In this document: positions 151 through 63,704 of the stretch, one piece after another | How positions within the stretch are numbered: the stretch's first letter is position 1 | How the letters are laid out: every line of letters begins with the position of its first letter | Assembly (NCBI RefSeq): GCF_005233835.1 | Contig: NZ_SZQA01000033.1 | Location: 1-64,000 of the forward strand | Reading direction: 5' to 3' | DNA from: Herbidospora galbida | GTDB lineage: Bacteria; Actinomycetota; Actinomycetes; Streptosporangiales; Streptosporangiaceae | DNA length: 64,000 nt | The notes under the pieces: model-generated | Seen by the model: the letters and a program-made list of their open reading frames with translations, nothing else | Databases searched by the model: none | Told to the model about the DNA's origin: nothing | Program-made: the position numbers and the translations under genes

Positions 151-1413
151 ATGGCAACTACACGGCCTCGCGCGGGCGGCAGCGTCCGCAAGGTTACCTC
201 CAAGAACGACCCCTGCCCACACGGCAAGGGCGCCAAGTGCGACTGCCGCTGGCGCGTCCAGTACGTCGACGGATCAGGCAGGCAGCGCGAGCGCAAGTTC
301 GACACCAAGGCCCAGGCCGACGCCCACCTCACCGAGGTCAACAAGGCCAAGATCACCACCGGCTCGGTGCCTGGCCACCTCACCGGCGACTCGCCCACGG
401 TCGAGCAGCTGTGCGACAAGTGGTTCGCCCACCGGGCCGACTTCACCCCGGGCACCGTCCGCAACTACCGGAGCAAGTGCCGGTGCCACATCGTGCCCTT
501 CTTCGGCGCCACAACCATGGTCTCCAAGATCACCAACGACCAGGTGGAGCAGTTCAGGGATCACCTGTATGCGGAAGAAATCTCCCCCGGCGAAGTGATC
601 ACGATCATCTCCAGCGTCCTGAAGGGAATGCTCGAATACGCCCACGAAAAGGGCTGGGTCGGCCGCAACCCCTGCATCGGGGTCCGCTTCAAGCCGGTTC
701 CCGAGAACGAGGTGTACCTTCCCACCCGTCAGAACGTGCTCGACATGGCGGAGAAGATCGATCCCTTCTACCGGCTGACCATCTTCCTCCAGGCCCTTCT
801 CGGCCTGCGGGCAGGGGAAGTCATGGGCGGCTCATGGGACTGCATCCGGGACGGCTACTTCCGCGCCTACCGGCAGCTCGACACGGCAGGGGAACTCATC
901 CCGCTCAAGGGGAAGAAGGAGGGCGAGTACCGGGACATCCCCATCCCCCCGCAGATGGCCGAGGAATTCGAGCGGCACGGACACCTGTACGGGCGGGAAG
1001 GCTGGTTCTTCCGCTCCCCGCGCAGGCCTGGGTACCCCATCGGGCGTACTGCCCACACCACGGCGTTCAACACCGCGCGCCTGATGCTCGGGTTCCACGA
1101 CGGAAGCTTCGTCCCTCAGTGCCTGCGGCATTACTTCTGCACCAACATGGTGCGGGTCACGCAGAACATTGCACTGGTCGCGGTGTGGGCTGGGCACGCG
1201 AGTGTTCAAACGACCTACGACAATTACTTCCACTACGTCGACGAGGACATCCGAATCGGCGCCGCCGCGTCCGCGCTTTTCCTCCGCCCCGACTTTATCG
1301 AGGCGGCGGAAGCCGGAAAGCCGGTAAATGACTTGGTCATTTCACCGCTGCGGGAGCCGGGAAAGAAGCCGCGAAGGCGGCATTTAGCGGGTGTGGCAGC
1401 CGGTCCGCTTTAA
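151..1413 (+). CDS. int: Tyrosine recombinase (phage integrase)
   Basis: Site-specific recombinase of about 420 residues that would integrate the element into the host chromosome. The N-terminal third carries an arm-binding-like segment and a SAM-like core-binding domain (about residues 60-170). The C-terminal catalytic domain shows the box I arginine (LLGLRAGEV), the GHASVQTT histidine motif and a tyrosine in TYDNYFHY. The box II motif, normally HxxR, reads QCLR, so the first histidine is replaced by glutamine. The ATG at 151 is chosen because AAGGAGGGG ends 6 nt upstream; an in-frame TTG at 145 is less likely. The gene converges on the excisionase-like gene and their stop codons overlap. 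The family assignment is firm; the effect of the Gln is unknown. Confidence 0.93.
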   Translation: MATTRPRAGGSVRKVTSKNDPCPHGKGAKCDCRWRVQYVDGSGRQRERKFDTKAQADAHLTEVNKAKITTGSVPGHLTGDSPTVEQLCDKWFAHRADFTPGTVRNYRSKCRCHIVPFFGATTMVSKITNDQVEQFRDHLYAEEISPGEVITIISSVLKGMLEYAHEKGWVGRNPCIGVRFKPVPENEVYLPTRQNVLDMAEKIDPFYRLTIFLQALLGLRAGEVMGGSWDCIRDGYFRAYRQLDTAGELIPLKGKKEGEYRDIPIPPQMAEEFERHGHLYGREGWFFRSPRRPGYPIGRTAHTTAFNTARLMLGFHDGSFVPQCLRHYFCTNMVRVTQNIALVAVWAGHASVQTTYDNYFHYVDEDIRIGAAASALFLRPDFIEAAEAGKPVNDLVISPLREPGKKPRRRHLAGVAAGPL

Positions 1414-2035: not shown

Positions 2036-3784
2036 ATGATCGACATTCAGCCTCGGGGCCTGTTCGAACCCAAAGTTCCCGGCGTCCTTCCGCCGCTTCC
2101 GTTCGCGCCCAAGCCGGTGATCAAGACATCGCCGGGCCCTGCCCAGCGCGGCTGGCTGTACAGCCAGGCCGTCATCATCGCCACCAGCTGCCTGCTGGGA
2201 CGCAGCTCCCTCGCCCCAGCCGGGGCCAGCCGCAACGACGGCTTCCGCAAGGTCGTGCGCCAGCTCGCCGTCCATGATCCCGAGTGGCTCACCGACCTCA
2301 TCTCCTGGCTGCGCCGGGAGAACGCATCCAAGACCGCGATCTTCGTCGCGGCGGAAATGGCGTACGCACGCCAGCGCGCCGGGCTCACCGGCCACACCGC
2401 CTACGCCGTCGCGACGGCCCTCAAGACTCCGTCAGATCCTGCGGAGCTGCTCAACCACTGGAAAGAGGTCTACGGCATGAAAACCCTGCCTCGCGCGATC
2501 ATCCGGGGGATCGCCGCCCGGCTTCCGCACCTGTACACGCAGGACGCGTTTCTGCACGACAACCCGACAGGCGGGGAGTTCACCTGGGCGGACGTCCTCA
2601 ACCTGACCCACCCTCGGGTCCGGCCGGAAGACTTCGAGGTGGGGCCGGAGATTCGCGCCCAGAGCCTGACCACCACCCAGCTCGCCGAACGTGCGGAGCT
2701 GTGGATGATCCTTCAGCAGACGCTCTTCAGGCACGTCCTCGACACCCAGTACCAGGCGAACGTCCCTACGCCCATCAGCCTGCGAACGATCTATCACTAC
2801 AGGTCGCTGATGCGCACCCCGGAGATCATCCGCGCTGCCATACTCCAGCGCCGTGGCGCCCCGAATGGGTTCGTAACGGCCGGGTTCACGCCCCAGGACA
2901 TGGCGCGCTGGCTGCCCGGCGCCTGGACGCACGCGAAGTGGGCTGCCGTCGTCGGGGGGATGACGTTGGCCGACAAGCTCGCACACCTCGCCGCCTTCGA
3001 CGAGGCCGGGCTGGAGGATGAGGTGGCCGAGGTGATCGCGGGGGAGATCTCGGACCCGGCTCTCATCGCGGCTAACCGCATCGGCCCGATGGCGGTCCTG
3101 GCCGCCGCGCGCAACGCGGGTAGCCGCTGGAAGCCCTACCTGACGACGGCCCTCGCCCAGTCCCTGAACAACGTTCCGATGCTCCCCGGCCGGACGCTGA
3201 TCTTGGTCAACATGGCCCCGGCGATGTTCCTGCCGACCGAATCCAGCTCGCGTGTCACGCGGGCCGACATGGCAGGTGCTATCGGCGCCATCTTCGGCAA
3301 GAGGTCGGAGATGGCGACCATCGTCGGACTCACCCCCCGGTCGCCGGAGATTCTCTGGCGACCGGGGGACAGCGTCGCCGACATCGTCGGCAGGTTCCTG
3401 CCTCACGGTCCGGCCGACGTCGCCGGAGCGCTGGCCGCTCATTACCGGGGCCACGACCGTGTCGTGATGGTGACCGGATCGCTCGACCACGACATGCTCT
3501 ACCGCAACCCGTTCCCGGGTAACAAGGCCTACCGGAACCCTTACGCCGGGCGCGGTGTGGAGCAGCTGCCGCCCACAGTGCCTCTGTACACCTCGCTGCT
3601 CGACCCGCAGGCGGCCATTCCGCAGCCGTCCGGCACTGACCTCGACAGGGCCGCCGACCTCAGGCGTGTGGTCTCCGTCTGGAGCGGCGACATCGGGTTC
3701 GGTCTCCCGCTCATCCTGGAGAACGCGCGCAACAGCCGGTGGCCCTGGCTGGGTCGTCACGCGCAGGAAGCGGGAGTGGCCTGA
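2036..3784 (+). CDS. TROVE domain (Ro60-like) RNA-binding protein
   Basis: A 582-residue member of the Ro60/Rsr family, ring-shaped HEAT-like RNA-binding proteins that hold Y RNAs and misfolded or damaged RNAs and can guide exonucleases. Residues about 40-370 form the alpha-helical TROVE region. The C-terminal part (about 385-560) resembles the vWA module, but the MIDAS signature DxSxS reads NMAPA (in ILVNMAPAMF), so metal binding is probably lost. The start has GGAG about 7 nt upstream. The last base of its TGA is the first base of the next ATG (TGATG). A Y RNA gene often lies nearby in other Ro operons; none is evident within 400 bp. Confidence 0.82.
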   Translation: MIDIQPRGLFEPKVPGVLPPLPFAPKPVIKTSPGPAQRGWLYSQAVIIATSCLLGRSSLAPAGASRNDGFRKVVRQLAVHDPEWLTDLISWLRRENASKTAIFVAAEMAYARQRAGLTGHTAYAVATALKTPSDPAELLNHWKEVYGMKTLPRAIIRGIAARLPHLYTQDAFLHDNPTGGEFTWADVLNLTHPRVRPEDFEVGPEIRAQSLTTTQLAERAELWMILQQTLFRHVLDTQYQANVPTPISLRTIYHYRSLMRTPEIIRAAILQRRGAPNGFVTAGFTPQDMARWLPGAWTHAKWAAVVGGMTLADKLAHLAAFDEAGLEDEVAEVIAGEISDPALIAANRIGPMAVLAAARNAGSRWKPYLTTALAQSLNNVPMLPGRTLILVNMAPAMFLPTESSSRVTRADMAGAIGAIFGKRSEMATIVGLTPRSPEILWRPGDSVADIVGRFLPHGPADVAGALAAHYRGHDRVVMVTGSLDHDMLYRNPFPGNKAYRNPYAGRGVEQLPPTVPLYTSLLDPQAAIPQPSGTDLDRAADLRRVVSVWSGDIGFGLPLILENARNSRWPWLGRHAQEAGVA

Positions 3785-5463: not shown

Positions 5464-5658
5464 CTAGTCGATGACCACGAGGCCGAGACGGGCCCACGAA
5501 TCGGCATCAATACCGTTCGCCCGCTGAACCTCGGCGTCTGGCAACTCGGCCGAGGTCACGGTGTTACCCACGAGATAGTCGACGTCGATAGGCTTCGGCT
5601 CCGGGGACTGAACAGTCCAGCCGAGAGAAGCCTCAGACGCGTCAATGGTGTTGTTCAC
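5464..5658 (-). CDS. Small hypothetical protein
   Basis: A 64-residue acidic protein, not recognised. It starts at a GTG with GAAGGG about 8 nt upstream. The sequence is rich in Asp/Glu (PEPKPIDVDYLVGN) and lacks membrane segments or cysteines. Confidence 0.55.
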   Translation of the reverse strand: MNNTIDASEASLGWTVQSPEPKPIDVDYLVGNTVTSAELPDAEVQRANGIDADSWARLGLVVID

Positions 5659-5716
5659 GGAATTCGCCCTTCAGGAATTCTTTATCTGAATTCCATTATT
5701 GCGGCGAATGCCGAAT

Positions 5717-5848
5717 TTATTGCTGTTGGACGGTCCAGCCCTCGTCCATTACCGGGCCCATTTCATCATGCTTCTCGCCGTGCGGGCAGTAATAGCCGGG
5801 GTAGTGGACACCTTCGTGGTTGTAGCAGGTGTCGATGGCGATGTTCAC
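5717..5848 (-). CDS. Micro-protein with Cys/His zinc-ribbon-like pattern
   Basis: A 43-residue reading frame starting at GTG (5848), with AGAGG upstream. It contains TCYNHEG and YYCPHGEKH, a C-x2-H ... C-x-H arrangement that could bind one zinc ion. Its GTG overlaps the stop of the upstream 50-residue gene (GTGTGA), so it is probably translationally coupled. Function unknown. Confidence 0.55.
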   Translation of the reverse strand: MNIAIDTCYNHEGVHYPGYYCPHGEKHDEMGPVMDEGWTVQQQ

Positions 5849-5997
5849 ACTGACACCTCTTCCCTTTGGGGGAAGCTCAACGACCGGCTCTCAGCTGCGA
5901 GTTCATGTGAATCCCGCGCCGATTGCGCCATGGACTTGCGGGCATCGGCCAGGATGGCGGACGCGGCCTCGTAGAAGGGGTCGTCGAGGAAGTTCAT
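5845..5997 (-). CDS. Small hypothetical protein
   Basis: A 50-residue alpha-helical protein (MNFLDDPFYEAASAILADAR...). It overlaps the stop of the upstream membrane protein gene by 4 bp and the start of the next micro-gene, forming a chain of coupled genes. Not recognised. Confidence 0.5.
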   Translation of the reverse strand: MNFLDDPFYEAASAILADARKSMAQSARDSHELAAESRSLSFPQREEVSV

Positions 5998-6302
5998 ATG
6001 GTGCGCCTCTTTGGTCGCGGCGGACTGTCGTTCAGAAGGTCCTCAACCGCTGTTACGACCCGGGCCAGCGTGGTGTTGTTGGTCTCCAGGACCTTGGCCA
6101 TCTGGGCGGCGAGCGGGAGGAGCTGATCGACGACGGCCCGTGCGGCATCGCGCTCTGCGACCACACGCCGATAGGCGCGTCCGGAGACGATGATCTCGAA
6201 GACGAAGGCCACGAAAATGAACGCCGCCACCGGCCCGAGGACGCGGGGGTCCGTCAGCGCGAGATCAACACTCGGCGCCGGAAGGGGGGTGGGAACGTTC
6301 AC
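5994..6302 (-). CDS. Single-pass membrane protein
   Basis: A 102-residue protein with one clear membrane helix (about residues 22-42: VLGPVAAFIFVAFVFEIIV), then a basic segment and a long amphipathic helix likely to form a coiled coil. It is the size of a small phage holin or accessory membrane protein, but it is far from the endolysin gene, so no lysis role is claimed. Confidence 0.6.
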   Translation of the reverse strand: MNVPTPLPAPSVDLALTDPRVLGPVAAFIFVAFVFEIIVSGRAYRRVVAERDAARAVVDQLLPLAAQMAKVLETNNTTLARVVTAVEDLLNDSPPRPKRRTI

Positions 6303-6486
6303 TGAGGGAAAACCGCCGATCGTTAGTTACTAATTCAACGATACGACGTGGAACGTTCTCGATATAAAGGGTGGTGGTGAGGCCTCCGCTGTAATCAACC
6401 GTGCCAGCGCACCGCACGGAGTGCTACGGATGTCGTCTGTGCCATCTGGCGCACCACCACCCATGAGGATCTTAGCGTAAAACACG

Positions 6487-6517
6487 GCACCCGCCCCGGT
6501 AACGACAGGGCGGGCGC
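6487..6517 (-). terminator. Terminator downstream of the DUF6879 gene
   Basis: On the minus strand GCGCCCGCCC pairs with GGGGCGGGTGC around a short loop, followed by a GTGTTTT tract. It lies 12 bp beyond the stop of the leftward DUF6879 gene. The rest of 6303-6528 shows no gene; ATAAAG-like AT-rich sequence near 6360 could hold the promoter of the membrane protein gene. Confidence 0.7.
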
Positions 6518-6528
6518 AGTTTGAAGCA

Positions 6529-7086
6529 CTAGAACGAGCCGCCGTATTTCTCGGCGAACGCGGGGAACGGTATGGACCGGCCAACCGCCATGTCGCGCCA
6601 GAAATTGGCCTGGACGATCCGCTCGGCGTCGTCCACGACCTCGGCCGCCTCGAACGTGCCTCCGTCTCCGTAGTGCATCATTACCAGGGTGGCTGAGTCG
6701 AAGAGCCAGTAGTCATGATGAGGCAGCCCTGTCGGCCACTCGCCGGGTGACACCGGAAGGAGCCTCACGTCTTCACCGGCCCGCACAGTGTGCGTATAGG
6801 CCCATGCGCATTCGAAGCGGACGTAGTCCGACAAGGGTTCTTCCACGACATGCACGCGGTGCAGAAGCTTCCCGGCAGCACGCGCCGGTCTGACGGTCTC
6901 TTCTATCCATCGGGCGATGCCCGGGAACTCACCGCGCTGCTGCCCGCCCAGGAAGAGATCGAATTCCGCCTTTTCGTAGGACACGTCATAGCGCTGCAAC
7001 GACTCCAAACGGTAGGCGGTGAAGCGGAAATCGGTGAAGAAGCGGTTGAACTCCGCGTCGTCGAGGGACTTGAAAGTCTGTCCCAC
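6529..7086 (-). CDS. DUF6879 family protein
   Basis: A 185-residue protein matching the actinobacterial DUF6879 pattern: FTAYRLESLQRYDV near the N-terminus, then RVHVVEEPLSDYVRFEC, an AGEDVRLLP segment and LPHHDYWLFDSATLVMMHYGDGG. Members usually sit beside helix-turn-helix repressors of the DUF5753 type and have no known activity. Here it stands alone with its own terminator. It is a typical actinomycete accessory gene and a marker of host lineage. Confidence 0.82.
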   Translation of the reverse strand: MGQTFKSLDDAEFNRFFTDFRFTAYRLESLQRYDVSYEKAEFDLFLGGQQRGEFPGIARWIEETVRPARAAGKLLHRVHVVEEPLSDYVRFECAWAYTHTVRAGEDVRLLPVSPGEWPTGLPHHDYWLFDSATLVMMHYGDGGTFEAAEVVDDAERIVQANFWRDMAVGRSIPFPAFAEKYGGSF

Positions 7087-24300: not shown

Positions 24301-24401
24301 AAAGCCGAAACGCGCAGTGATGCGCGTCGTGTTGGGTGTGGTGCCCAATGCCTGACGACTGGTAGCCGTCAGCTCCGCGCCGAATTTCAGGAGGTAGCAG
24401 T
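24301..24401 (+). promoter_or_regulatory. Intergenic region with three consecutive small hairpins
   Basis: ACGCGCA/TGCGCGT, TTGGG/CCCAA and CTGACG/CGTCAG pair in sequence between 24310 and 24372. They are followed by GCCGAATTTCAGGAGGT, a motif almost repeated at 25338 before another start. It may be a terminator plus start-associated sequence. Confidence 0.4.
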
Positions 24402-42479: not shown

Positions 42480-43466
42480 ATGAGCGACCTTGCCGTTGTG
42501 ACGGAACCCGGGATCAGGATCACCGCGAGTCCGGCGCGGCTGTACCTCGCCAACCTGAACACCTACCAGTCCAGGCGGACCATGGAGGGGTGTCTTGAGG
42601 CGCTGGTGCGGATCTTCTCCGATGGCCAGCCGGTCGTGTACACGATCGATGACTTCCCGTGGGCTGATCTGGGTTACCAGGAGACCACGGCGGTGCGGGC
42701 TCGTCTGATCGAGCTCGGCCTGAGTCCCTCGACGGTGAACAAGTACCTGTCGGCACTGAGAGGAGTTTTGAAACAAGTCACGCTTCTCAATCCGAAGTCG
42801 CCTCAGGTCGCGGTGATCTCGGCGGCCCGTGAGGTCAAGAGCCTCCCGGTCAAGAAGCTCCCGGTCGGCCGTTACGTGCCGGTCGAGGAGATGGCGCTGC
42901 TGCTGGGGTCGTTCCTCGCTGAAAAGCGCCGGAAGGCTGTGCGAGATCTCGCTCTGGTCTCTCTGCTGTACGCGACAGGGGCGCGAGCAGCCGAGGGCGC
43001 CGGTATCGAGCTCGACGACTACGACCCTGCGACCGGCCACTTGCTGATTAATGGCAAGGGCGGCAAGGAGCGTGAGGTTCGTCTCCATCCGACCGCTATG
43101 GAGTACGTCGGCACGTGGCTGGAATTGCGCGGGGACATGCCTGGGGCATTGTTCCCGCAGGTGACCTACCACGGTGCCGTGGAGCTCTCCAGAGGCCGCG
43201 CTTTGGCATTCACGGGTCAGACGACCTGGGATATCGTGTCGAAGCGCAGCAGGCGTCTGGGCATCTACATGACGCCTCACGATATTCGGCGGACGCGGAT
43301 CAGCGACTTGTTCTTCCAGGGGGTTGACCCGGCGCTGATTATGAAGATCGTCGGTCACGACGACTTCAAGACGCTGATGGGTTACGACATGAGGCCGTTC
43401 GAAGCGGCGGCCGAGGCGATGGCGCAGCAGATCTGGGTCACGCCGATTCTGCCGATCGCGGCTTAG
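42480..43466 (+). CDS. Tyrosine recombinase, catalytically complete
   Basis: 328 residues from the ATG at 42480 with GAGGAGGC 5 nt upstream. All active-site motifs are present: YATGARAAEGAG (Arg), GKGGKEREVRL (Lys of the beta-hairpin), MTPHDIRRTR (HxxR), KIVGHDDFKT (His) and MGYDMRP (Tyr nucleophile). The SAM-like N-terminal domain spans about 25-110. It resembles XerC/D-type or integron-like recombinases more than the arm-binding integrase at 151. It may resolve multimers, drive a second integration module or belong to a nested element. Confidence 0.92.
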   Translation: MSDLAVVTEPGIRITASPARLYLANLNTYQSRRTMEGCLEALVRIFSDGQPVVYTIDDFPWADLGYQETTAVRARLIELGLSPSTVNKYLSALRGVLKQVTLLNPKSPQVAVISAAREVKSLPVKKLPVGRYVPVEEMALLLGSFLAEKRRKAVRDLALVSLLYATGARAAEGAGIELDDYDPATGHLLINGKGGKEREVRLHPTAMEYVGTWLELRGDMPGALFPQVTYHGAVELSRGRALAFTGQTTWDIVSKRSRRLGIYMTPHDIRRTRISDLFFQGVDPALIMKIVGHDDFKTLMGYDMRPFEAAAEAMAQQIWVTPILPIAA

Positions 43467-43733: not shown

Positions 43734-45197
43734 TCAGGCGGCGTATTTGATATCCTCGCCGACCACTTCGCCGTCGACGATACCGAGCTGTGCGGCCACG
43801 TCCTCGTCGCGGACGGGTTCGATCGCGCGGGTGGCGGCGGCGGCCTTCTCGCCGAACATACGGCTGAAGTAGCCTGCCTCGGCCGTGGCGCTCGGCATAT
43901 CGCCCTCGATGGTGATCTTGAAGGTGCTGCGGGCCTTGAGCATTCGCTGGAGCCGGTCGATCTCCGCGCTCACGTTCGGGTCGGGGTATCCGCCACCTGC
44001 GACTTCTTCGGTGAATCGGCCGTAGAGGACACGCTGGGTCTGTATTTCGATAAGGACGTCCTGGATCCGCGTGAGCTGTTCCTTGGTGCGCGCCGACACC
44101 GGGAGGTCGAAAGCGCATGTGCTGTCCGGCTCGTACTCGGGGCACTTCTCGCGCAGGAAGCAGGTGTCGCACTGGCGTTGCGATTCCGCTCGGTTGGAGA
44201 TGAGCGGAAGCGGCTGGAAGGTCTTGTTGCCGTCCTCGTCGAATGTCGAGATTTCCCGTGTTTCGACGCCGATTCCGGGGAGCAGACGGGTCTTCTCGCG
44301 ACGCTTGAGAGCGACGACATTTCCGTGTTCCGGCGCCGTCGTATCAAACGACTCAGAGGCGTTTTCCGTGTTAGCGCGTTGCGGGCTTTTCGGGGGTGTA
44401 TTTGATACACCGTTGATGCTGTTCATGTATTGGGTCCAGCTCCAGATGGAGAGCTTGAGGACCTCGGTCGTGTCGTCGGCGTTGATGAGCTCTGGGTCGA
44501 GGCCGAGGTCGAGGAAGAGGGCGCGATGGCGGGTTCGGGCCTGGTCCTTGTACTTGCGGGGGTAGCGCTTCAACTCTCCGGCGGCCCACACGATCGTGTC
44601 TCCGTACTGGCTGGGGCTTAGCCAGCTGGTCGAGGAGATCGACGACCAGGGGAGCGCGGCGATCGTCGTCGGCTTGGTCATGGCCAGGCCGTGAAGCTGT
44701 GTGTGGGCGGCGAGGGTGCGCAGCCTGTGCGTGATGTCCTGGCCATTGACGACCGTCGCGGTGACGCCGACACGCTGATGCTGCTCGGCGAGCTCGTAGA
44801 GCTTGTCCAGGCCGTCTTCGGGATGCCACACCGGCATGAACCGGTCCCCGGCGATCTGACGGAGGTTGGCGCTGGTTTGAGGCACGGAAGGAACGTCGAA
44901 ATCGACGACGATCTGTAGGTCGCCGACGTTCTTGGTGACGAAGTCGGTGTAGCCGATGGCGAGGTCGAGGACCTGCTGCTCGGTGTAGGCGTCGGGGTTC
45001 TTCCGGATGGTGTAGCCGCCGGAGTCGAGCAGGACCATGGTTTCGGCCGAGTATTTGTCAGCAACCAGCCAGGGCTTCTTGAAGGTGACGCGGCGGGCCA
45101 GGCCGAGGTAGCTGAGCGCCTGGTGGCGCACTCCCTGGTCAGTCAAGAGAGTGCGCCACGCGTTGAGTTCGGTGCCGCTGTAGTACAGGTCGGTCAC
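43734..45197 (-). CDS. tRNA-guanine transglycosylase-like protein fused to a Cys4 domain
   Basis: 487 residues from the GTG at 45197, overlapping the upstream stop. Residues 1-265 have TGT-like features: YSAETMVLLDSGGYTIRK (compare the DSGGFQ motif), LQIVVDFDVPS, and LHGLAMTKPTTIAALPW with SISSTSWLSPSQYG. TGT enzymes swap guanine for a 7-deazaguanine; phage and DpdA relatives act on DNA. Residues about 330-487 contain CDTCFLREKCPEYEPDSTC, a C-x2-C-x5-C-x8-C site for zinc or an Fe-S cluster, then a helical domain. No 7-deazaguanine biosynthesis genes are in the window, so a host precursor would be needed. Fold likely, substrate unknown. Confidence 0.55.
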   Translation of the reverse strand: MTDLYYSGTELNAWRTLLTDQGVRHQALSYLGLARRVTFKKPWLVADKYSAETMVLLDSGGYTIRKNPDAYTEQQVLDLAIGYTDFVTKNVGDLQIVVDFDVPSVPQTSANLRQIAGDRFMPVWHPEDGLDKLYELAEQHQRVGVTATVVNGQDITHRLRTLAAHTQLHGLAMTKPTTIAALPWSSISSTSWLSPSQYGDTIVWAAGELKRYPRKYKDQARTRHRALFLDLGLDPELINADDTTEVLKLSIWSWTQYMNSINGVSNTPPKSPQRANTENASESFDTTAPEHGNVVALKRREKTRLLPGIGVETREISTFDEDGNKTFQPLPLISNRAESQRQCDTCFLREKCPEYEPDSTCAFDLPVSARTKEQLTRIQDVLIEIQTQRVLYGRFTEEVAGGGYPDPNVSAEIDRLQRMLKARSTFKITIEGDMPSATAEAGYFSRMFGEKAAAATRAIEPVRDEDVAAQLGIVDGEVVGEDIKYAA

Positions 45198-50000: not shown

Positions 50001-50094
50001 GTGTTTCTGGCGTACGGCGCCAACGCAGTGATCGCCATCGTGCTGTACCTTTTGTCCGGCTCAAGGGACAGAAAGGTGAGTCGAACTATACAGT

Positions 50095-50167
50095 ACCGAC
50101 GCAGGGACTTGAACCCTGAACCTCCCGATTTTGAGTCGGGCACCTCTGCCAGTTGGGCTACGTCGGC
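50095..50167 (-). tRNA. tRNA-Leu(CAA), without class II arm
   Basis: Acceptor GCCGACG pairs with CGTCGGT; anticodon arm CCCGA-CTCAAAA-TCGGG gives CAA (UUG codons); T-arm CAGGG-TTCAAGT-CCCTG. The variable region has only 5 nt, whereas bacterial leucine tRNAs have a long arm. No CCA is encoded. Confidence 0.85.
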
Positions 50168-50171
50168 CGGG

Positions 50172-50243
50172 CTCCCCATGGAGGGTTCGAACCTCCATTA
50201 CCAGAGCCAAAATCTGGCGTCCTGCCGATTGGACGAACGGGGA
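50172..50243 (-). tRNA. tRNA-Gln(TTG)
   Basis: Acceptor TCCCCGT/ATGGGGA, D-arm GTCC/GGAC, anticodon arm CCAGA-TTTTGGC-TCTGG (TTG), T-arm GGAGG-TTCGAAC-CTCC. The tRNA would decode CAA, rare in GC-rich hosts. Confidence 0.88.
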
Positions 50244-50247
50244 ATGG

Positions 50248-50320
50248 CTGACCATCCTGGACTCGAACCAGGGATGGGCGGATTAACAGTCCGCTGCTCT
50301 GCCAGCTGAGCTAATGGTCA
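50248..50320 (-). tRNA. tRNA-Asn(GTT)
   Basis: Acceptor TGACCAT/ATGGTCA, D-arm GCTC/GAGC, anticodon arm GCGGA-CTGTTAA-TCCGC (GTT), T-arm CCTGG-TTCGAGT-CCAGG. A complete cloverleaf. Confidence 0.93.
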
Positions 50321-50325
50321 TTGCG

Positions 50326-50399
50326 TGCCGGTGCGAGGACTCGAACCCCGACTGGCCCGATCCTAAGTCAGGTGCCTCTTCCAATTGGGCTACACCGGC
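50326..50399 (-). tRNA. tRNA-Leu(TAG), without class II arm
   Basis: Acceptor GCCGGTG/CACCGGC, anticodon arm CCTGA-CTTAGGA-TCGGG (TAG, CUA codons), T-arm TTCGAGT. As with the CAA tRNA, the variable region is short. It shares the GCCCAAYTGG D-region with that tRNA. Confidence 0.85.
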
Positions 50400-50400
50400 G

Positions 50401-50475
50401 TGCCGACACAGGGACTCGAACCCCGGACCCGCGCGATTAAAAGTCGGCTGCTCTAACCAGCTGAGCTATGTCGGC
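50401..50475 (-). tRNA. tRNA-Lys(TTT)
   Basis: Acceptor GCCGACA/TGTCGGC, D-arm GCTC/GAGC, anticodon loop CTTTTAA (TTT). The outer two pairs of the anticodon stem are mismatched (GCCGA against TCGCG). T-arm CGGGG-TTCGAGT-CCCTG. Confidence 0.85.
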
Positions 50476-50593
50476 AAATTTTGTGGCGCAGAAACCTATT
50501 GAGAATGCTTCCCCTCAGGGGGCCTCGACACGATTTCTACCTACTGCGCATCAGTTAAAGGTGTCATAAGCCTACTCAAGTAAGTCGAACACG

Positions 50594-50665
50594 TACCGAC
50601 GCGGGGATTCGAACCCCGATTTTCCTGACCCCATGCCAGGCGCCTCTACCATTGGGCACATCGGA
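50594..50665 (-). tRNA. tRNA-Pro(TGG), atypical anticodon loop
   Basis: Acceptor CCGATG/CGTCGG, anticodon arm CCTGG-CATGGGG-TCAGG (TGG at the canonical position), T-arm CGGGG-TTCGAAT-CCCCG. Position 33 is A instead of U, and the first acceptor pair is mismatched, so function or identity could differ. Confidence 0.75.
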
Positions 50666-50666
50666 G

Positions 50667-50742
50667 TACCGCCAGCGGGAATCGAACCCGCGCCTTCGAG
50701 ATTGAAAGTCTCGCGACCCTAACCAACAGAGTCCATGGCGGC
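50667..50742 (-). tRNA. tRNA-Glu(TTC)
   Basis: Acceptor GCCGCCA/TGGCGGT, anticodon arm CGAGA-CTTTCAA-TCTCG (TTC), T-arm GCGGG-TTCGATT-CCCGC. A well-formed cloverleaf. Confidence 0.92.
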
Positions 50743-50743
50743 T

Positions 50744-50819
50744 TGGAGCCGTAGGGGGGATTCGAACCCCCAACATGCTGCTTGGAAGGCAGCCACTCTA
50801 CCAATTGAGTTACTACAGC
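50744..50819 (-). tRNA. tRNA-Gly(TCC) with encoded CCA
   Basis: Acceptor GCTGTAG/CTACGGC, anticodon arm GCTGC-CTTCCAA-GCAGC (TCC), T-arm GGGGG-TTCGAAT-CCCCC. The 3' end TCCA includes the encoded CCA. Confidence 0.92.
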
Positions 50820-50820
50820 T

Positions 50821-50897
50821 TGGAGCCGGGACGGGGATTTGAACCCCGAACCTGCCGCTTACAAGGCGGCTGCTCTATCCAGTTGAGCTATCCCGGC
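50821..50897 (-). tRNA. tRNA-Thr(TGT) with encoded CCA
   Basis: Acceptor GCCGGGA/TCCCGGC, D-arm GCTC/GAGC, anticodon arm GCCGC-CTTGTAA-GCGGC (TGT), T-arm CGGGG-TTCAAAT-CCCCG; the sequence ends TCCA. Confidence 0.93.
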
Positions 50898-50898
50898 G

Positions 50899-50971
50899 TG
50901 CCAACGCGAGGAATCGAACCTCGGACCTGTCCCTTTTCAGGGGACCGCTCTTCCATCTGAGCTACGATGAC
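50899..50971 (-). tRNA. tRNA-Phe(GAA)
   Basis: Anticodon arm GTCCC-CTGAAAA-GGGAC (GAA), T-arm CGAGG-TTCGATT-CCTCG. The acceptor GTCATCG/CGTTGGC has one T-T mismatch. Confidence 0.88.
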
Positions 50972-50972
50972 G

Positions 50973-51045
50973 CACTAGCGACGGGACTTGAACCCTCATC
51001 AATCTCATCGACAATGAGCCTCCCAGCCAATTGGGCGACGCTAGC
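50973..51045 (-). tRNA. tRNA-Asp(GTC)
   Basis: Acceptor GCTAGCG/CGCTAGT, anticodon loop TTGTCGA (GTC) in a stem with GCTCA/TGAGA. The T-arm (GAGGG-TTCAAGT-CCCGT) has a mismatch. Overall a tRNA, with some degeneracy. Confidence 0.8.
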
Positions 51046-51046
51046 T

Positions 51047-51124
51047 TGGTTGCGGGTGCCGGATTTGAACCGGCGATCCCGGACTTATGAGGCCCGTGAG
51101 GACTCCGAACTCCTCTAACCCGCA
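51047..51124 (-). tRNA. tRNA-Met(CAT) with encoded CCA
   Basis: Acceptor TGCGGGT/ACCCGCA followed by A-CCA, anticodon arm CGGGC-CTCATAA-GTCCG (CAT), T-arm GCCGG-TTCAAAT-CCGGC. The paired first acceptor position argues against an initiator; elongator Met or a lysidine-modified Ile2 are both possible. Confidence 0.88.
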
Positions 51125-51125
51125 G

Positions 51126-51197
51126 TGTGAACGAGCGGAATCGAACCGCCTCAAAGGGAGTCACATTCCCTTGTGCTAACCATTACACCACATTCAC
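51126..51197 (-). tRNA. tRNA-His(GTG)
   Basis: Acceptor GTGAATG/CGTTCAC with a G just before the 5' end, anticodon arm AGGGA-ATGTGAC-TCCCT (GTG), T-arm GCGG-TTCGATT-CCGC. Confidence 0.88.
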
Positions 51198-51201
51198 CAT
51201 G

Positions 51202-51275
51202 GATAGTCGGCGGGATTCGAACCCGCGTTTCCGCTTTTGCAGAGCGGCGTTCTTGGCCTCTGAACTAGCGACTAC
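51202..51275 (-). tRNA. tRNA-Cys(GCA)
   Basis: Acceptor GTAGTCG/CGACTAT, anticodon arm CCGCT-CTGCAAA-AGCGG (GCA), T-arm GCGGG-TTCGAAT-CCCGC. It is the first tRNA of the leftward array. Confidence 0.9.
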
Positions 51276-59309: not shown

Positions 59310-59617
59310 TCCGATCGGGGCGCCAGGTCCGGCCGGAGCCGGTATCGGTGTTTGACTTCCTGGCGCATTGCGTGTCGTTCTTCGGGGGTCTTTCCACCCC
59401 ATACGCCGTCGCTTTCGTTGTTGACGGCGGCGTATTCGAGGCATTTATCGCGGGTCGGGCAGACCACGCCGTCCCAAGTGCCGTTGCAGATGTCAACGCA
59501 GTCCTGCTCGTCGGCTGGCGTGAACCAGGGGTCACAGTCGCGTCGAGGTTCGAACTTGATGCACTTGGCTCCCCGGGCTATCCAATCGGGGGCGTGCAGG
59601 CGTAGGTGCATGACCAT
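59285..59617 (-). CDS. WhiB family Fe-S transcription regulator
   Basis: 110 residues. The WhiB turn motif is SDGVWGGKTPEERHAMR, preceded by Cys ligands in AKCIKF, DICNGTWDGVVCPTRDKC and the CLEYAAVNNE helix. The middle pair is spaced C-x8-C instead of the usual C-x2-C, while the C-x5-C that follows is normal. WhiB proteins bind a 4Fe-4S cluster and sigma factor region 4. Phage WhiB can repress host whiB genes and promote superinfection exclusion. The stop lies inside the Cas4-like gene's start region. Confidence 0.9.
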   Translation of the reverse strand: MVMHLRLHAPDWIARGAKCIKFEPRRDCDPWFTPADEQDCVDICNGTWDGVVCPTRDKCLEYAAVNNESDGVWGGKTPEERHAMRQEVKHRYRLRPDLAPRSEWQWPTLN

Positions 59618-59931
59618 TACTGAGGGTCTTCCTCCAAATCGAGTTCGGCGATGAAATCCTCTTCGGCGAGGAGGATCCAGTTGCGTCCGCCGATTTCGAT
59701 TCCGAAGAGCATCGTCCGTCCGTCGAGGAGTGCGTGCTTTTCGGCTTGGAGTAGTTCGTCTTTGGTGATGCGGTAGCTCTTGGCGCCGGTGGTTTTGTAT
59801 TCGATGCTGAACTTTTTGCTGCGGACGTCATTTTTTCTCCGCCACTGGTTCCCGCTTCCGGCGTTCACGGTGCCGCCGAAGAGCTTGGCACCGCGTTTCT
59901 CCTGTCGGCGGGAATCCTTGTAGCCACTCAT
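59617..59931 (-). CDS. Small PD-(D/E)XK Holliday junction resolvase-like protein
   Basis: 104 residues. GGTVNAGSGNQWRRKNDVRS with KFSIEYKTTGAKSYRI gives Asp and ExK catalytic positions, followed by the helix ELLQAEKHALLDGR and the closing strand NWILLAEEDF. This matches small phage Hjc/VRR-like resolvases. It complements RuvC in the same operon. Confidence 0.72.
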   Translation of the reverse strand: MSGYKDSRRQEKRGAKLFGGTVNAGSGNQWRRKNDVRSKKFSIEYKTTGAKSYRITKDELLQAEKHALLDGRTMLFGIEIGGRNWILLAEEDFIAELDLEEDPQ

Positions 59932-60107
59932 TAAGGGACGAGTGCCATGGTGTACTTCGCGGAGTGCCAGCGGCCGGAGGTGAAGACGCCGAGGAGCTCG
60001 TCCTTCTCGCCAAGAATGTGCAGGGTGCCTATGTTGACCACCTCGAACCTTTCTCCGATGAAGAGATCGTGGCTGCCACCGGGCAGGTCAACCTTGATTA
60101 CGCGCAT
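59931..60107 (-). CDS. Small beta-rich protein
   Basis: 58 residues from the ATG at 60107. RVIKVDLPGGSHDLFIGERF and LHILGEKDELLGVFTSGR suggest a compact beta sheet. Its stop is adjacent to the next gene's start. Function unknown. Confidence 0.58.
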   Translation of the reverse strand: MRVIKVDLPGGSHDLFIGERFEVVNIGTLHILGEKDELLGVFTSGRWHSAKYTMALVP

Positions 60108-60108
60108 T

Positions 60109-60693
60109 TCATGCCGCCAATGCTGTGGTGTCGTCGATGACGTGGGCGTCGGGGGTTTTGTCGAGGATGACTTTGTAGATGCGTCGGTCTGCTCGTCCGA
60201 AGATGCAGATGCCTTCCGGCTTGTCGAAACCCGGTGCCGCAACTGATCCATCACGACGCAGATTTTCAAGTGCAGAAGCCACAGCACGGTCGCTCCAGAT
60301 GCCGTCGTAGAGTTTGGGGACGACGCCCAGCTCCGGGAGAGGGCTGTCGAACTCCAGAAAGCCGAATCTATCGACATTGAAAAGCGAGAAGCGCTTGTCG
60401 CCGTTCTTGAGACCGTAGCCTCGCTGGATTCCGTTTCCCCACCATTCTCCGAAATGGTGGCCGGGGCCGAGGACTTCGATCAGGGTTTCGTAGTTCTGTT
60501 CGACCCAGCGGGCGAAGCCGTGGTTGTCGGCGTCGGGGGTGATGAGCCTCTTACGGGACTGTGCGCCTACCTGCCCGTCGTCGGTGATAATGACGGCGGC
60601 ATTTGTTCCGTCGAGCTTCTCGGTGATGCAATAGCCCTTGGGGTCGTACAGCCGGGGGGTTTTCGGCCAGGGCAAGAAGGTGATGTTGTCCAT
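60109..60693 (-). CDS. RNA ligase, Rnl2-like
   Basis: 194 residues from the ATG at 60693. The nucleotidyltransferase motif I KxDGxN reads TEKLDGTNAAV, with the adenylated lysine. KPEGICIFG (motif IV) and IYKVIL (motif V) follow. Its small size indicates a minimal catalytic core like other short phage RNA ligases. It seals 3'-OH/5'-phosphate RNA ends, the last step after kinase/phosphatase end healing. Its start overlaps the kinase stop (TAATG). Confidence 0.87.
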   Translation of the reverse strand: MDNITFLPWPKTPRLYDPKGYCITEKLDGTNAAVIITDDGQVGAQSRKRLITPDADNHGFARWVEQNYETLIEVLGPGHHFGEWWGNGIQRGYGLKNGDKRFSLFNVDRFGFLEFDSPLPELGVVPKLYDGIWSDRAVASALENLRRDGSVAAPGFDKPEGICIFGRADRRIYKVILDKTPDAHVIDDTTALAA

Positions 60694-61598
60694 TAGAAGT
60701 TTCCTTCGGCGACCTGGAAGCAGGTCAATCCGAGCGTGCGCCACATCTGAACAACTTGATCGCGGTCGTCGAATACGCCGAGGATGTTGTAGTGGTTGCG
60801 GATTTCGTTGTCGAAGATTTCGGACTTGACGATCCAATCGGTCCGGAAATCTCCGTGCTTTCGCATGTGAAGGGCGATGGGTTCGAAGTCGAGGTGCTCG
60901 ACGAGCCAGGTCCAGGTTTCGCGCTGGCAGGAGTCGTCTCGGCCGGAGACGAAGATCAGGTCGTTGCCGGTGCGGTAGAGGTCGTTGAGGACCCTGATCA
61001 CCGGCCAGTTGGGGCGGTCCTCGACGACGCGGGTCATGTCGAAGGGGCTCCGGTCGCCGCGTAGGGCCACGGTGCCGTCGATGTCGACGATGTAGGCCTG
61101 CGGCTTGGACTCGTCGGCGAGGTAGTAGTGGAGTAGGTCAGGGGCCGGTTCCCACGGCAGCTCCGGCACGGGGAGCGGGGAGCCCTTACCGCGCACGTAG
61201 CGGTCGTGGTAGTCGCGGATGGTGGGTCCGCCGACCGGATTCGGCCGGGCGGCGTCACGGGCGATGCAGACCTCAAGGGGGATGTGAGTGAGGTCGACGA
61301 TCCTGACTTCGGCCTTGTGCCGCTTGGCCAGGGCCTTGAGCTCGCGGACGGTGCGGGAGGGGAGGTTGGTGTCGTCGACGACGACGCTGACGCCGCGTCC
61401 AAGCAGGTCGGAGATGATGGCGTCGCGGAGGAAGATGACGCGGCGCTCCACGTCGCCGTGGTAGCCGGAGTGGGCCATGGCGCGGATGTCGTCGCGATTG
61501 ACGCGGGCTCGGTGCTGAACGTCTTCCGAGACCCAGCCGTGGGCCCAGGTGGACTTGCCGGAGCCTTGGATGCCTCGGAGGATAACGAGAGTGATCAT
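60693..61598 (-). CDS. Polynucleotide 5'-kinase / 3'-phosphatase
   Basis: 301 residues from the ATG at 61598 (ATGA overlap with the nucleotidyltransferase). The N-terminal kinase has Walker A RGIQGSGKSTWA and the lid arginines near VRGKGS. The C-terminal HAD phosphatase has VDIDGTVALRG (DxDGT) and FVSGRDDSC. This is the T4 Pnkp arrangement: it phosphorylates 5'-OH and removes 3'-phosphate or 2',3'-cyclic phosphate ends left by ribotoxins that cut tRNA anticodon loops. Confidence 0.93.
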   Translation of the reverse strand: MITLVILRGIQGSGKSTWAHGWVSEDVQHRARVNRDDIRAMAHSGYHGDVERRVIFLRDAIISDLLGRGVSVVVDDTNLPSRTVRELKALAKRHKAEVRIVDLTHIPLEVCIARDAARPNPVGGPTIRDYHDRYVRGKGSPLPVPELPWEPAPDLLHYYLADESKPQAYIVDIDGTVALRGDRSPFDMTRVVEDRPNWPVIRVLNDLYRTGNDLIFVSGRDDSCQRETWTWLVEHLDFEPIALHMRKHGDFRTDWIVKSEIFDNEIRNHYNILGVFDDRDQVVQMWRTLGLTCFQVAEGNF

Positions 61599-62278
61599 TC
61601 GGGCTTGAGCATTCTGGTTCGGGTGCGGATTAGCCATTGCTCTACGAGCGCGGCGTCCGGCTGTTGTGGAATGGCCGGGGTTGCGGTGTCGAAAATGTCG
61701 CGAGCGCGGGCGATGAGGTATTCCGCCTTGACGATCTGCCCACTGGCGATGTCTTCGCCGAATTGCAGGTAGTTCTCCGGGTTCTTCAGCCGGACGGGAA
61801 GAAAACCGGTGGTGTAGAGCGTGGTTCCTTGATGGACCAGGCGCATGAGGTGCCTGGCGTGTTTGGCGGTTCTCTTGCGGGTATCGGCGCTGAATGAGCC
61901 GTCACCGCGACGCTTCAGCTTGTTGAACTGCTGGACGGCGTAGCCGAGATAGGCGTCACGGACGCGTTCCGCAGAGAGGAATGCTGTGCGAATGTCAATC
62001 AGCTCTTGGCCGAGTTCGGTCTTCTCGGTGTAGAGGTCATCGGGCAGCCACATGAGTTCTTGGAGTGTGGGGTTGCCGTTGAGGGCCAGGCCGACGTATT
62101 TACGGACCTCATGGATGGTGCAGTCGAGATCTGTGGCGTTGATCGTCGCCGGAGGCGAGCTGAGGCCGAAAAACGTGCTGGGGTGTGCGGCGTAGACGCC
62201 GAGGTAGTCCAGATCGCTGTCCGGCCCTGCCAGGCCGTAGGCCGTGGAGCCGACGACACCCTTAAGCAGAATGTTCAT
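61595..62278 (-). CDS. Nucleotidyltransferase of the polymerase-beta superfamily
   Basis: 227 residues. The active site reads VVGSTAYGLAGPDSDLDYLG: GS motif and DxD. The C-terminal part is helical (KRTAKHARHLMRLVHQGTTL) as in YcgL-like predicted nucleotidyltransferases. It is locked between kinase and Rnl1-like ligase genes by 4-bp overlaps on both sides. In this setting it may add nucleotides to healed RNA ends or modify a repair partner; this is inference. Confidence 0.85.
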   Translation of the reverse strand: MNILLKGVVGSTAYGLAGPDSDLDYLGVYAAHPSTFFGLSSPPATINATDLDCTIHEVRKYVGLALNGNPTLQELMWLPDDLYTEKTELGQELIDIRTAFLSAERVRDAYLGYAVQQFNKLKRRGDGSFSADTRKRTAKHARHLMRLVHQGTTLYTTGFLPVRLKNPENYLQFGEDIASGQIVKAEYLIARARDIFDTATPAIPQQPDAALVEQWLIRTRTRMLKPE

Positions 62279-63468
62279 TCGGTGCTAGCCCACGCGCGGC
62301 TGGCAGGCGGGTAAACGGCCTTCCAGCAGTACGGGAGGAGGTTCTTGTCGTCGAGGGAGGCGAAAATCCCGGCCTTGTGCGGGTGGTCCTTGATCTCCTC
62401 GGCGATCTCGGCTCGGGTCTTTCCGGAGCCGAAGTATCCGGCCTCGACATCGTCGATTTCGTCCCAGACGGCGAACATCTGCGCTTGCAGGCTCCTGGCG
62501 GTGTCGCACAGCCAGTCGGAGAAGTCCTTCGGCATACTCTGCACGAAGATCTCCAGCCAGTTGGGGCCGGTCGCGAGAATCCCTGCTGCGCGCTTGGGGT
62601 CGATTCCGAGTTTCGATCCCCAGTGCTTGGGGTCGTGGATGATGTGCTGGCAGGAATTGACGGCCAGATACTCCCAGATGACTCGCGGATTGGTCCGGGT
62701 GACAATCCGATGTTTTGCGACGTAGTCCTGCTGCTTGATCTTCACCTGCTGATTGGAGAAGAGGTCGAGCACGACCACTCCTTCAGCGTTTTGCCGGTCG
62801 ACGAGCGCGAGGGCGTCAGCGAAGGTGTCGGCCGGAAGTGTGGCGGCTACAGGTCCGGTCCACTCGGGGATGGCTTCTTGGCTGAAGATCAGGCCGCTGA
62901 AGTTGGCGACCGCGCCGAGAAGGATCAGGTCGTCCAGCGCCCCGTAGTCGACGACGATGCGGTTCTGCGGGTAAACGATTTCCACCAGGACGGTAACCCC
63001 GTCCGGAGGCCGGAAAGTCGGGTACTTCTCCCGCAGAACCTTCGTCGCGTGGATAGCCTGGGCGGAGACGAAGCTGCCTCGGGTGGCGATGTATGTTTCG
63101 CCTTCCCAGACATAGATAACGCCTAACGAGCCGTCGAGCTTATCCGTGACACGCACAGTGTTCGCAGGATGAATGCTCGGGGCGTGCGCCTCGTTGTGGT
63201 TGAAGAACTTGGGGAAGGGCCGGGCGATAACTCGACCGGTGTTGTCGATGATGAGTCCCCTAGACGCGCGAACCGCCGGGCTCCACGCAGCGTCCTGCAC
63301 CGCCTTCTCGGTGTAGTTGAAAATGGCCAGAGGAAATTCGGGGTGGTAGCTGACTCTCACATAGCCTTGGCTGATGGCCTCGACGAGCTCGTCGAGCTTG
63401 ACGACCTTGTTCTGGTAGGTCTCCAGCAGCTCAGTGACGTGTGCGAGCTCGGTAATCTGCATGGTCAT
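62275..63468 (-). CDS. RNA ligase, T4 Rnl1-like
   Basis: 397 residues. Motif I is VTDKLDGSLGVIY; ASRGLIIDNTGRVIARPFPK precedes it, as in Rnl1. Motif IV EGVVVLD and motif V QVKIKQQDYV follow. The C-terminal 110 residues are helical, like the tRNA-recognising domain of Rnl1. It joins broken RNA, especially anticodon loops of tRNAs. With kinase/phosphatase and a second ligase it forms a complete repair cassette. Confidence 0.92.
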   Translation of the reverse strand: MTMQITELAHVTELLETYQNKVVKLDELVEAISQGYVRVSYHPEFPLAIFNYTEKAVQDAAWSPAVRASRGLIIDNTGRVIARPFPKFFNHNEAHAPSIHPANTVRVTDKLDGSLGVIYVWEGETYIATRGSFVSAQAIHATKVLREKYPTFRPPDGVTVLVEIVYPQNRIVVDYGALDDLILLGAVANFSGLIFSQEAIPEWTGPVAATLPADTFADALALVDRQNAEGVVVLDLFSNQQVKIKQQDYVAKHRIVTRTNPRVIWEYLAVNSCQHIIHDPKHWGSKLGIDPKRAAGILATGPNWLEIFVQSMPKDFSDWLCDTARSLQAQMFAVWDEIDDVEAGYFGSGKTRAEIAEEIKDHPHKAGIFASLDDKNLLPYCWKAVYPPASRAWASTE

Positions 63469-63704
63469 CGCTTGGTGCTCTTCGGGGGGCTGTAGGGGAT
63501 CGGCTTGGGGTTCGGGTAGGCGGTTCGGGGTCGAGGGGGGATGTATCGGGTGACGTTCTTACCGGGGTCCGGGATTTTGATCTCGATCTGCACCGGCCGG
63601 TTACGCCAGGTCCCCATGTTGTGTATGGCGTTGTAGGCGATCAGGCCGAAGACGATGAGAACCGCGATGACGATGGTGATTTCCATGAGCTTGATGCGGT
63701 TCAT
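63465..63704 (-). CDS. Single-pass membrane protein
   Basis: 79 residues with one N-terminal membrane helix (about 8-27, ITIVIAVLIVFGLIAYN) and a Pro/Lys-rich tail. It overlaps the Rnl1-like start by 4 bp (ATGA). Possibly a small membrane accessory or holin-like protein. Confidence 0.6.
   Translation of the reverse strand: MNRIKLMEITIVIAVLIVFGLIAYNAIHNMGTWRNRPVQIEIKIPDPGKNVTRYIPPRPRTAYPNPKPIPYSPPKSTKR

Follow-up and report, generated by a model that had tools for sequence, protein, structure and literature searches.

The window analysed here, that is, the whole stretch of 64,000 nucleotides making up the first 64 kb of a 110,447-bp contig in the 8.31-Mb genome of Herbidospora galbida, carries a cassette of four genes encoding an Rnl1-like RNA ligase, a nucleotidyltransferase of the RlaP family, the kinase-phosphatase Pnkp and a short Rnl2-like RNA ligase (Table 1). 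Surveys of gene neighbourhoods support a unit of three enzymes, namely Rnl1, RlaP and Pnkp, and the short Rnl2-like ligase is an adjacent gene rather than a conserved partner. With some confidence, we read the cassette as a phage counter-defence RNA repair unit which would work in the order of healing, filling and sealing. This reading is based on family membership, catalytic residues, the tight coupling of the genes, the occurrence of the triad in three gene orders and the fusion of RlaP with a 3'-phosphatase.

The preliminary description of the window had reported four genes in tight series, which was confirmed. All four frames are open on the minus strand and their products score above the curated Pfam cut-offs (PF09511, 45.1 bits against 28.3; PF10127, 92 against 23; PF25109, 177.3 against 27.6; AAA_33, 64.4 against 27; PF09414, 49.9 against 27). 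The Rnl1/RlaP and RlaP/Pnkp junctions are each formed by ATGA with a 4-bp overlap, and the Pnkp and Rnl2-like genes have one base in common in TAATG. A longer Pnkp frame reaching to 61637 is an upstream extension of the same gene. The span originally given for the cassette (59617-63468) does contain the four repair genes, but it also takes in a 58-aa frame and a Holliday-junction-resolvase-like gene at 59617-60107.

Two of the enzymes resemble their T4 counterparts. Pnkp has the T4-type layout, with an N-terminal kinase and a C-terminal HAD phosphatase in the same domain order, and keeps all 12 of the positions that we take to be catalytic in T4 Pnkp. The solved chains nearest to it in sequence are those of Pnkp1 (4xrp, E 8.6e-34) and T4 Pnkp (1ltq, E 1.1e-27), and its identity to the T4 protein is 34%. 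The combination of a kinase-phosphatase with a ligase follows the same logic as bacterial Pnkp/Hen1 repair (PMC4411300), but the window Pnkp lies far below the cut-off of TIGR04075 for bacterial Pnkp (32.2 bits against 750). The Rnl1-like ligase is 28% identical to T4 Rnl1, which is its sole solved sequence relative up to E 0.1 (best E 3.8e-8). With T4 residues numbered as we take them to be, K99, D101, E159, E227, K240 and K242 align to K110, D112, E163, E229, K243 and K245, all invariant across 16 sequences, and motifs I, III, IV and V of the nucleotidyltransferase core are present (K110, E163, E229, K243, K245). Of eight T4 positions in the comparison, these six have the same residue in the window ligase; K117 and S118 are replaced by A and T, and we think that the T4 motif numbering assumed here is off at these two. 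Structure prediction had been proposed as a check. The AlphaFold2 model of the ligase (pLDDT 89.6), with a predicted helical C-terminal part, has T4 Rnl1 as its best PDB match (2c5u, E 1.3e-16, 399 columns), followed by the fungal tRNA ligases Trl1; the Foldseek match to 2c5u is whole-chain, at a TM-score of just 0.5. The C-terminal domain of T4 Rnl1 is credited with tRNA specificity. Against TIGR02308, the T4 RnlA equivalog, the score was 59.5 bits with a cut-off of 242.25, and the product is Rnl1-like rather than a T4 RnlA equivalog.

The third enzyme, RlaP, belongs to a family whose founding paper is reportedly that of Burroughs and Aravind in 2016. Its residues G10, S11, D22, D24 and D52 are invariant in 63 sequences, D52 being only nearly invariant in a more divergent set of 14, and they match what we take to be the Pol-beta signature, GS...DxD plus a third acid. 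Among solved structures no sequence relative was found at a meaningful E value (best 0.24). The AlphaFold2 model (pLDDT 94.1) predicts a nucleotidyltransferase core with a helical half, and its 16 best PDB matches are nucleotidyltransferases. The best folds are aminoglycoside nucleotidyltransferases (6un8, E 9e-6) and structures of HalB, a Hailong-system protein, together with either oligodeoxyadenylate or a dATP analogue (9dbh, 9dbj), at TM-scores of 0.38-0.46. When the model was compared with viral models, the best matches were phage proteins, several of them named nucleotidyltransferase, with TM-scores up to 0.89; weaker ones include baculovirus HE65 and giant-virus proteins. The reading of RlaP as a mislabelled CCA-adding enzyme was discarded, since there was no such Pfam match and the nearest fold differs. 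The chemistry of RlaP cannot be read from its neighbours alone; it is predicted to add nucleotides to RNA ends. The idea of restoring lost nucleotides before sealing, raised at the outset for this cassette, is not new: such a role before ligation was already predicted for the RlaP family (PF10127) in PMC7824862, and the tie of the family to RNA ligases, with the same proposed role, is found there and in PMC6514570. The window agrees with this published association in family, ligase link and proposed role, and it goes beyond the association in that RlaP is contiguous with both Rnl1 and a full Pnkp.

The RlaP survey covered the best 80 of 95 viral loci, the best 80 of 279 genome-contig loci and named phages. 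After dereplication at 90% identity it comprised 131 loci, of which 75 were from phages or viruses and 56 from genome contigs that may include prophages. Partners were searched within 3 kb by profiles seeded from the window proteins. These profiles miss ligases of the PF09414 type, as they did 0.2 kb from RlaP in Gordonia Bantam and 2.9 kb from it in Kudefre, and all partner counts are therefore lower bounds. RlaP homologues did not lie solely outside RNA-repair loci: Rnl1, an Rnl2-like ligase or Pnkp was found at 40 of the 131 loci (28 of 75 viral and 12 of 56 genome-contig, the window included). Both Rnl1 and Pnkp were found at 13 loci, 10 viral with the window among them and three on genome contigs. 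These triads are arranged as Rnl1-RlaP-Pnkp (6), Rnl1-Pnkp-RlaP (4) or RlaP-Rnl1-Pnkp (3), and they need 12 state changes on the RlaP tree, gain and loss not being told apart. This was a quick tree of 126 of the 131 rows, with long branches and many weak or open forks, which left out L018, L019, L021 and L023 (partial profile coverage) and L067 (RlaP match in two frames).

The commonest partner found for RlaP is the 3'-phosphatase domain of Pnkp, sometimes without the kinase. The domain was present within 3 kb of RlaP at 27 of the 75 viral and 10 of the 56 genome-contig loci, in all 37 cases on the strand of RlaP. At 19 loci (12 viral, seven genome-contig) it was detected without a kinase, although one of the 12 viral cases, L086, has a full Pnkp whose kinase half lies just beyond 3 kb. 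The kinase alone was seen near RlaP at one viral locus, probably L088, whose contig stops within the gene. Pfam was run on 10 phosphatase-only neighbours of the 19 and on a further three (L028, L121, L129), and all 13 matched PF25109 above the cut-off. Furthermore, a single uninterrupted frame encodes both RlaP and the PNKP phosphatase in Actinomadura terrae, A. litoris and A. rubrisoli (L121, L123, L129), and the fusion was borne out by Pfam in both of those tested (L121, L129). Such pairing and fusion fit a filling chemistry because the phosphatase makes the 3'-OH that a polymerase needs. The fused gene at L121 has opposite-strand frames on its flanks.

For ligases anywhere on the contig, 45 contigs were picked from the 80 viral RlaP loci after the neighbourhoods had been seen, mainly longer and dereplicated ones; the set omits L087, which has a triad, and L052, which has Rnl1 on the opposite strand 7 kb off. 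Rnl1 was found in 10 of the 45, eight times within 3 kb of RlaP; in the remaining two the distance is 3.6 kb (L086) and, with Rnl1 on the opposite strand, 7.6 kb (L075). Under uniform placement, eight of 10 would have a P of about 3.5e-8, a rough value as phage genes cluster by function. RlaP is linked to Rnl1 and Pnkp beyond uniform placement, and the earlier proposal that the nucleotidyltransferase belongs with RNA repair is supported. PF09414 was above the cut-off in nine of the 45 contigs. A chromosomal partner of RlaP other than the phosphatase was not recognised among the 45 largest neighbour clusters; those recognised were RlaP and Rnl1 themselves, a group resembling CCA-adding enzymes, lineage synteny, and frames that are antisense or overlap others, and the rest are unannotated. 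The CCA-adding-enzyme-like frame, named by the appearance of its sequence, recurs beside RlaP in seven dereplicated viral loci (L002 and L069 group). RlaP was also found in 16 of 41 genomes, the host's own included, with all six congeners among them. Tandem adjacent RlaP matches occur in four family-level relatives (G010, G012, G022, G023), the frames inspected being those of G012 (L269, about 5565-6892).

Sixteen records, T4 and others chosen for RlaP or Rnl1 matches and thus no random sample, were searched for the four families. All four families are present in T4, Klebsiella Miro, Streptomyces BRock and LuckySocke, Arthrobacter Mimi and the Erwinia jumbo phage pEa_SNUABM_19. T4 had been presented as using Pnkp plus Rnl1; both are there, but it offers no two-enzyme contrast to the window because it also has Rnl2 and an RlaP, NrdC.11 (43.2 bits against a cut-off of 23, and 46.6 bits when scanned as a protein). 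Orthologues of nrdC.11 were matched to COG3541 nucleotidyltransferases in 2006 (PMC1524935), and in the open-licence literature the papers naming NrdC.11 and those on RlaP with RNA repair have none in common. The genes of the window are contiguous and overlapping with RlaP between, whereas in T4 pseT (Pnkp) is separated from rnlA (Rnl1) by 1.4 kb containing other genes, and rnlB and nrdC.11 lie about 24 kb and 78 kb from pseT. BRock and LuckySocke have RlaP within 0.2 kb of Pnkp and Rnl1 far off. The PNKP phosphatase is present in 12 of the 15 RlaP-bearing named or fragment records, and a ligase of one or the other family in 10. In Satis, Ading and VanLee no ligase match accompanies RlaP and the phosphatase, KB57 is without the phosphatase, and RlaP stands alone in DirtyBoi and in the 12-kb fragment G001.

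Host tRNases leave ends with a 2',3'-cyclic phosphate or 3'-phosphate and a 5'-OH. In the proposed pathway, the RNA would be cut by a ribonuclease of the host, most probably an anticodon nuclease or another tRNase like it; Pnkp would clear the 2',3'-cyclic phosphate or 3'-phosphate and phosphorylate the 5'-OH; RlaP, as a template-independent Pol-beta nucleotidyltransferase, would restore the lost nucleotide or nucleotides on the freshly dephosphorylated 3'-OH; and the Rnl1-like ligase would then seal. Three points of this scheme are inferred, namely tRNA as the substrate, the addition of nucleotides by RlaP and the place of RlaP between the phosphatase and the ligase. The healing steps of T4 have been described (PMC2610378), and in the same article RloC is reported to excise the wobble nucleotide; its discoverers suggested that phages might be unable to repair such damage. 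It has been reported that tRNA inactivation is a common anti-phage strategy (PMC12409363). A more far-reaching proposal, which is offered tentatively and may well fail, is that RlaP is a 3'-end restoring polymerase with the PNKP 3'-phosphatase as its main step-partner, that healing, filling and sealing beats nucleotide-excising tRNases such as RloC, and that T4 NrdC.11 is the same enzyme. If this is true, T4 holds an unrecognised third step of tRNA repair through NrdC.11.

However, a number of results weigh against heal-fill-seal repair as the role of the cassette or of RlaP. No partner was detected within 3 kb at 91 of the 131 RlaP loci, nor at 44 of the 56 genome-contig loci taken separately, and 29 of the 45 viral contigs, which may be incomplete, lack a match above the cut-off to either PF09511 or PF09414. 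A distance of about 1-2 kb separates Rnl1 from Pnkp in four phages (T4, Miro, Mimi and the Erwinia phage), in which RlaP is found about 10 kb or more from them, and Rnl1-Pnkp pairs occur without RlaP in Seahorse (whole record) and at L266 and L267 (flanks only). From results such as these it follows that RlaP also has a life outside ligase-based repair. The host genome has a second RlaP of its own (contig C84), and its sole Rnl1 and PNKP-phosphatase matches are those of the phage. The nearest solved folds of RlaP, at a TM-score of about 0.4, are not CCA-adding enzymes, and no RlaP activity assay was found in the open-licence literature, outside which most subscription papers lie. The PHROGs label of the Rnl1-like ligase is RNA ligase and tail fibre attachment catalyst, a double label that T4 RnlA also carries, and for this reason the ligase may have a structural side role. 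Finally, a search of the host genome for AAA_13 (PrrC/RloC-type) proteins gave no match. A host PrrC or RloC as the matching attacker was discarded on this result, but it says little, as a lysogen or carrier need not have one. A defence-system reading was also discarded, since neither the four proteins nor the RlaP of the host had a PADLOC match.

Part of this evidence can be read in another way, in which Pnkp and Rnl1 suffice for simple anticodon breaks as in plain T4-type repair and RlaP is an independent traveller, for example a modifier of small molecules or host proteins. The pairs lacking RlaP, in Seahorse with Rnl1 directly followed by Pnkp, are what it would lead one to expect, as are the many RlaPs for which no partner was found and the best PDB folds of RlaP, which are mostly small-molecule nucleotidyltransferases, with MNT at low significance. 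But same-strand linkage in three orders and fusion to a 3'-phosphatase are hard to square with hitch-hiking, and we consider this explanation unlikely. We give still less credit to the idea that RlaP and the 3'-phosphatase mend tRNA acceptor ends trimmed by tRNA-tail nucleases, with the ligase pair serving another lesion. The phosphatase without kinase at 19 of 131 loci (L086 being the exception noted above) agrees with it, and so do the PF25109 matches of all 10 such neighbours tested, the CCA-adding-enzyme-like neighbour in seven viral loci and the 10 of 14 window tRNAs without an encoded CCA end. The clustering of RlaP with Rnl1 and full Pnkp, however, points to internal breaks, and trimming of acceptor ends by a metal-dependent nuclease leaves no 3'-phosphate for the phosphatase.

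A single pathway of all four enzymes, with the two ligases split between a gapped loop and a nicked duplex, is very improbable: the adjacency and tight coupling in the window, the presence of all four families in T4 and five other records and the short ligase 2.8 kb from the Rnl1-Pnkp pair in Seahorse are on its side, but 79 of 80 viral loci of the Rnl2-like ligase are without the other three in their flanks, the exception being the window, only one of 41 Rnl2-like contigs has RlaP, and in Tucker and Caulobacter C1 the short ligase is placed among DNA-metabolism genes. The survey behind these counts took the best 80 of 132 viral loci with fetched flanks; the ligase itself is spread over 219 phage records (tblastn). 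None of Rnl1, RlaP or Pnkp was found in the flanks of the 79 other viral loci, and the 41 contigs were picked from these 79 after their neighbourhoods had been seen. No separate same-strand neighbour family of the ligase occurred in more than eight of 81 loci. A survey of homologues for the same four-gene order, as the preliminary description had envisaged, found no other case, neither at the 79 other Rnl2-like viral loci nor at the other surveyed RlaP loci, on contigs which can be short and with profiles seeded from the window. The four-gene conserved system was rejected on this neighbourhood survey, and the short ligase is treated as outside the unit because the four-gene run was unseen elsewhere. 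Of the broader system that had been suggested, there remains a T4-type healing and sealing module which includes RlaP.

The short ligase itself, judged by its alignment, seems to be an Rnl2-type core rather than a full T4-type Rnl2. K26 and E83 align with K35 and E99 of T4 Rnl2, while the later T4 motifs do not line up; it has 194 residues against 334 in T4 Rnl2, whose C-terminal domain has no counterpart in the alignment. No solved sequence relative was found up to E 0.1, and PF09414 was the only match. Similar minimal ligases of 190-202 aa are present in Mycobacterium Tucker, Arthrobacter Seahorse and Caulobacter C1 and are 52-56% identical to that of the window over the first 179 or so residues. 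Unlike in the window, the genes annotated within 3 kb of the short ligase include none for Rnl1, RlaP or Pnkp in Tucker, where it stands beside ThyX, or in Caulobacter C1, where it is near RecD and thymidylate synthase. Seahorse differs from the window in the distance to its Rnl1-Pnkp pair and in the absence of RlaP from the whole record. We read the short ligase as a putative separate nick-sealing enzyme which would be next in the operon by chance.

Comparative genomics had already described systems of this kind, of which the cassette is a good example. New, as far as this could be checked, are the exact cassette, the specific and recurrent link of RlaP to the phosphatase with its fusions, and the evidence against the second ligase as a conserved member. 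The window thus represents a minimal operon in which the gene of the predicted filling enzyme lies between the sealing and healing genes. The survey yields a testable order of phosphatase, RlaP and ligase, with T4 nrdC.11 as the model-phage case, and the RlaP-phosphatase fusions are single-chain reagents for the chemistry.

Table 1 Features of the cassette, the tRNA genes and other loci mentioned in the text (window positions; the single tRNA past the window in contig positions)
Feature	Position	Strand	Evidence or remark
Rnl1-like ATP-dependent RNA ligase, 397 aa	62275-63468	-	PF09511 E 1.4e-11
RlaP-family Pol-beta nucleotidyltransferase, 227 aa	61595-62278	-	PF10127 E 6.5e-26
Pnkp, N-terminal 5'-kinase and C-terminal 3'-phosphatase, 301 aa	60693-61598	-	AAA_33 and PF25109
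Short Rnl2-like RNA ligase without C-terminal domain, 194 aa	60109-60693	-	PF09414 E 5.2e-13
58-aa frame, not RNA-repair by any match	59931-60107	-	No Pfam, PHROG or NCBIfam match
Holliday-junction-resolvase-like, DNA metabolism, outside cassette	59617-59931	-	phrog_2002 E 6.4e-17
79-aa frame upstream of cassette	63465-63704		4-bp overlap with Rnl1-like start
14-tRNA array	50093-51275	- (cassette strand)	ARAGORN; 14 Rfam RF00005 matches
Fifteenth tRNA, Pro(tgg), just past the window	65117-65194	+	
Integrase	151-1413		
Second integrase-family gene	42480-43466	+	PF00589 E 7.7e-22
Type II hammerhead ribozyme match	24303-24371	+	Rfam RF02276, 43.9 bits against gathering 37
Queuine tRNA-ribosyltransferase-like protein	43734-45197	-	phrog_887 E 5.2e-63; no Pfam match
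582-aa protein	2036-3784	+	TROVE-domain PDB chain, weak, E 1.1e-4; PHROG 850 'RNA-binding protein', E 2.5e-15; no Pfam match

Downstream of the cassette the tight run goes on with a WhiB-like gene, a Cas4-like exonuclease and ThyX. The run extends both upstream and downstream, which makes the cassette part of a longer operon-like block and not an isolated island. By blastn, 97 phage records matched the cassette region, with identities of 60-80% throughout; the best match listed covers 16% and none reaches 80% coverage, with records very near its own genome possibly omitted. The contig looks like a tailed-phage genome, probably that of a temperate phage, because it encodes a terminase large subunit, a tail sheath, a DNA polymerase, an integrase and an excisionase-like gene. 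An IMG/VR virus contig has an RlaP 100% identical to that of the window. No exact terminal repeats were found on the contig.

The array of 14 tRNAs, described earlier as 9 kb from the cassette, was recovered by both ARAGORN and Rfam at a distance of about 8.8 kb. Its tRNAs are placed almost end to end with a single gap (50475-50593), and an encoded CCA end is present in four of the 14 as called. It is possible that the array provides the client RNAs of the cassette; on the same strand, it may also supply replacement tRNAs, and changes in the anticodon loop have been proposed (PMC10264068). The fifteenth tRNA and the array are on different strands, and the array has a Pro(tgg) of its own.

Other features of the window include a hammerhead ribozyme match located between two called frames; self-cleaving RNA leaves end types that Pnkp and ligases mend. 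The queuine tRNA-ribosyltransferase-like protein is possibly a DNA-modifying relative. With respect to the 582-aa protein and its weak TROVE-domain match, Ro/TROVE-type proteins are named as RNA-repair platforms in PMC7824862. The window also carries a second integrase-family gene in addition to that near its start.

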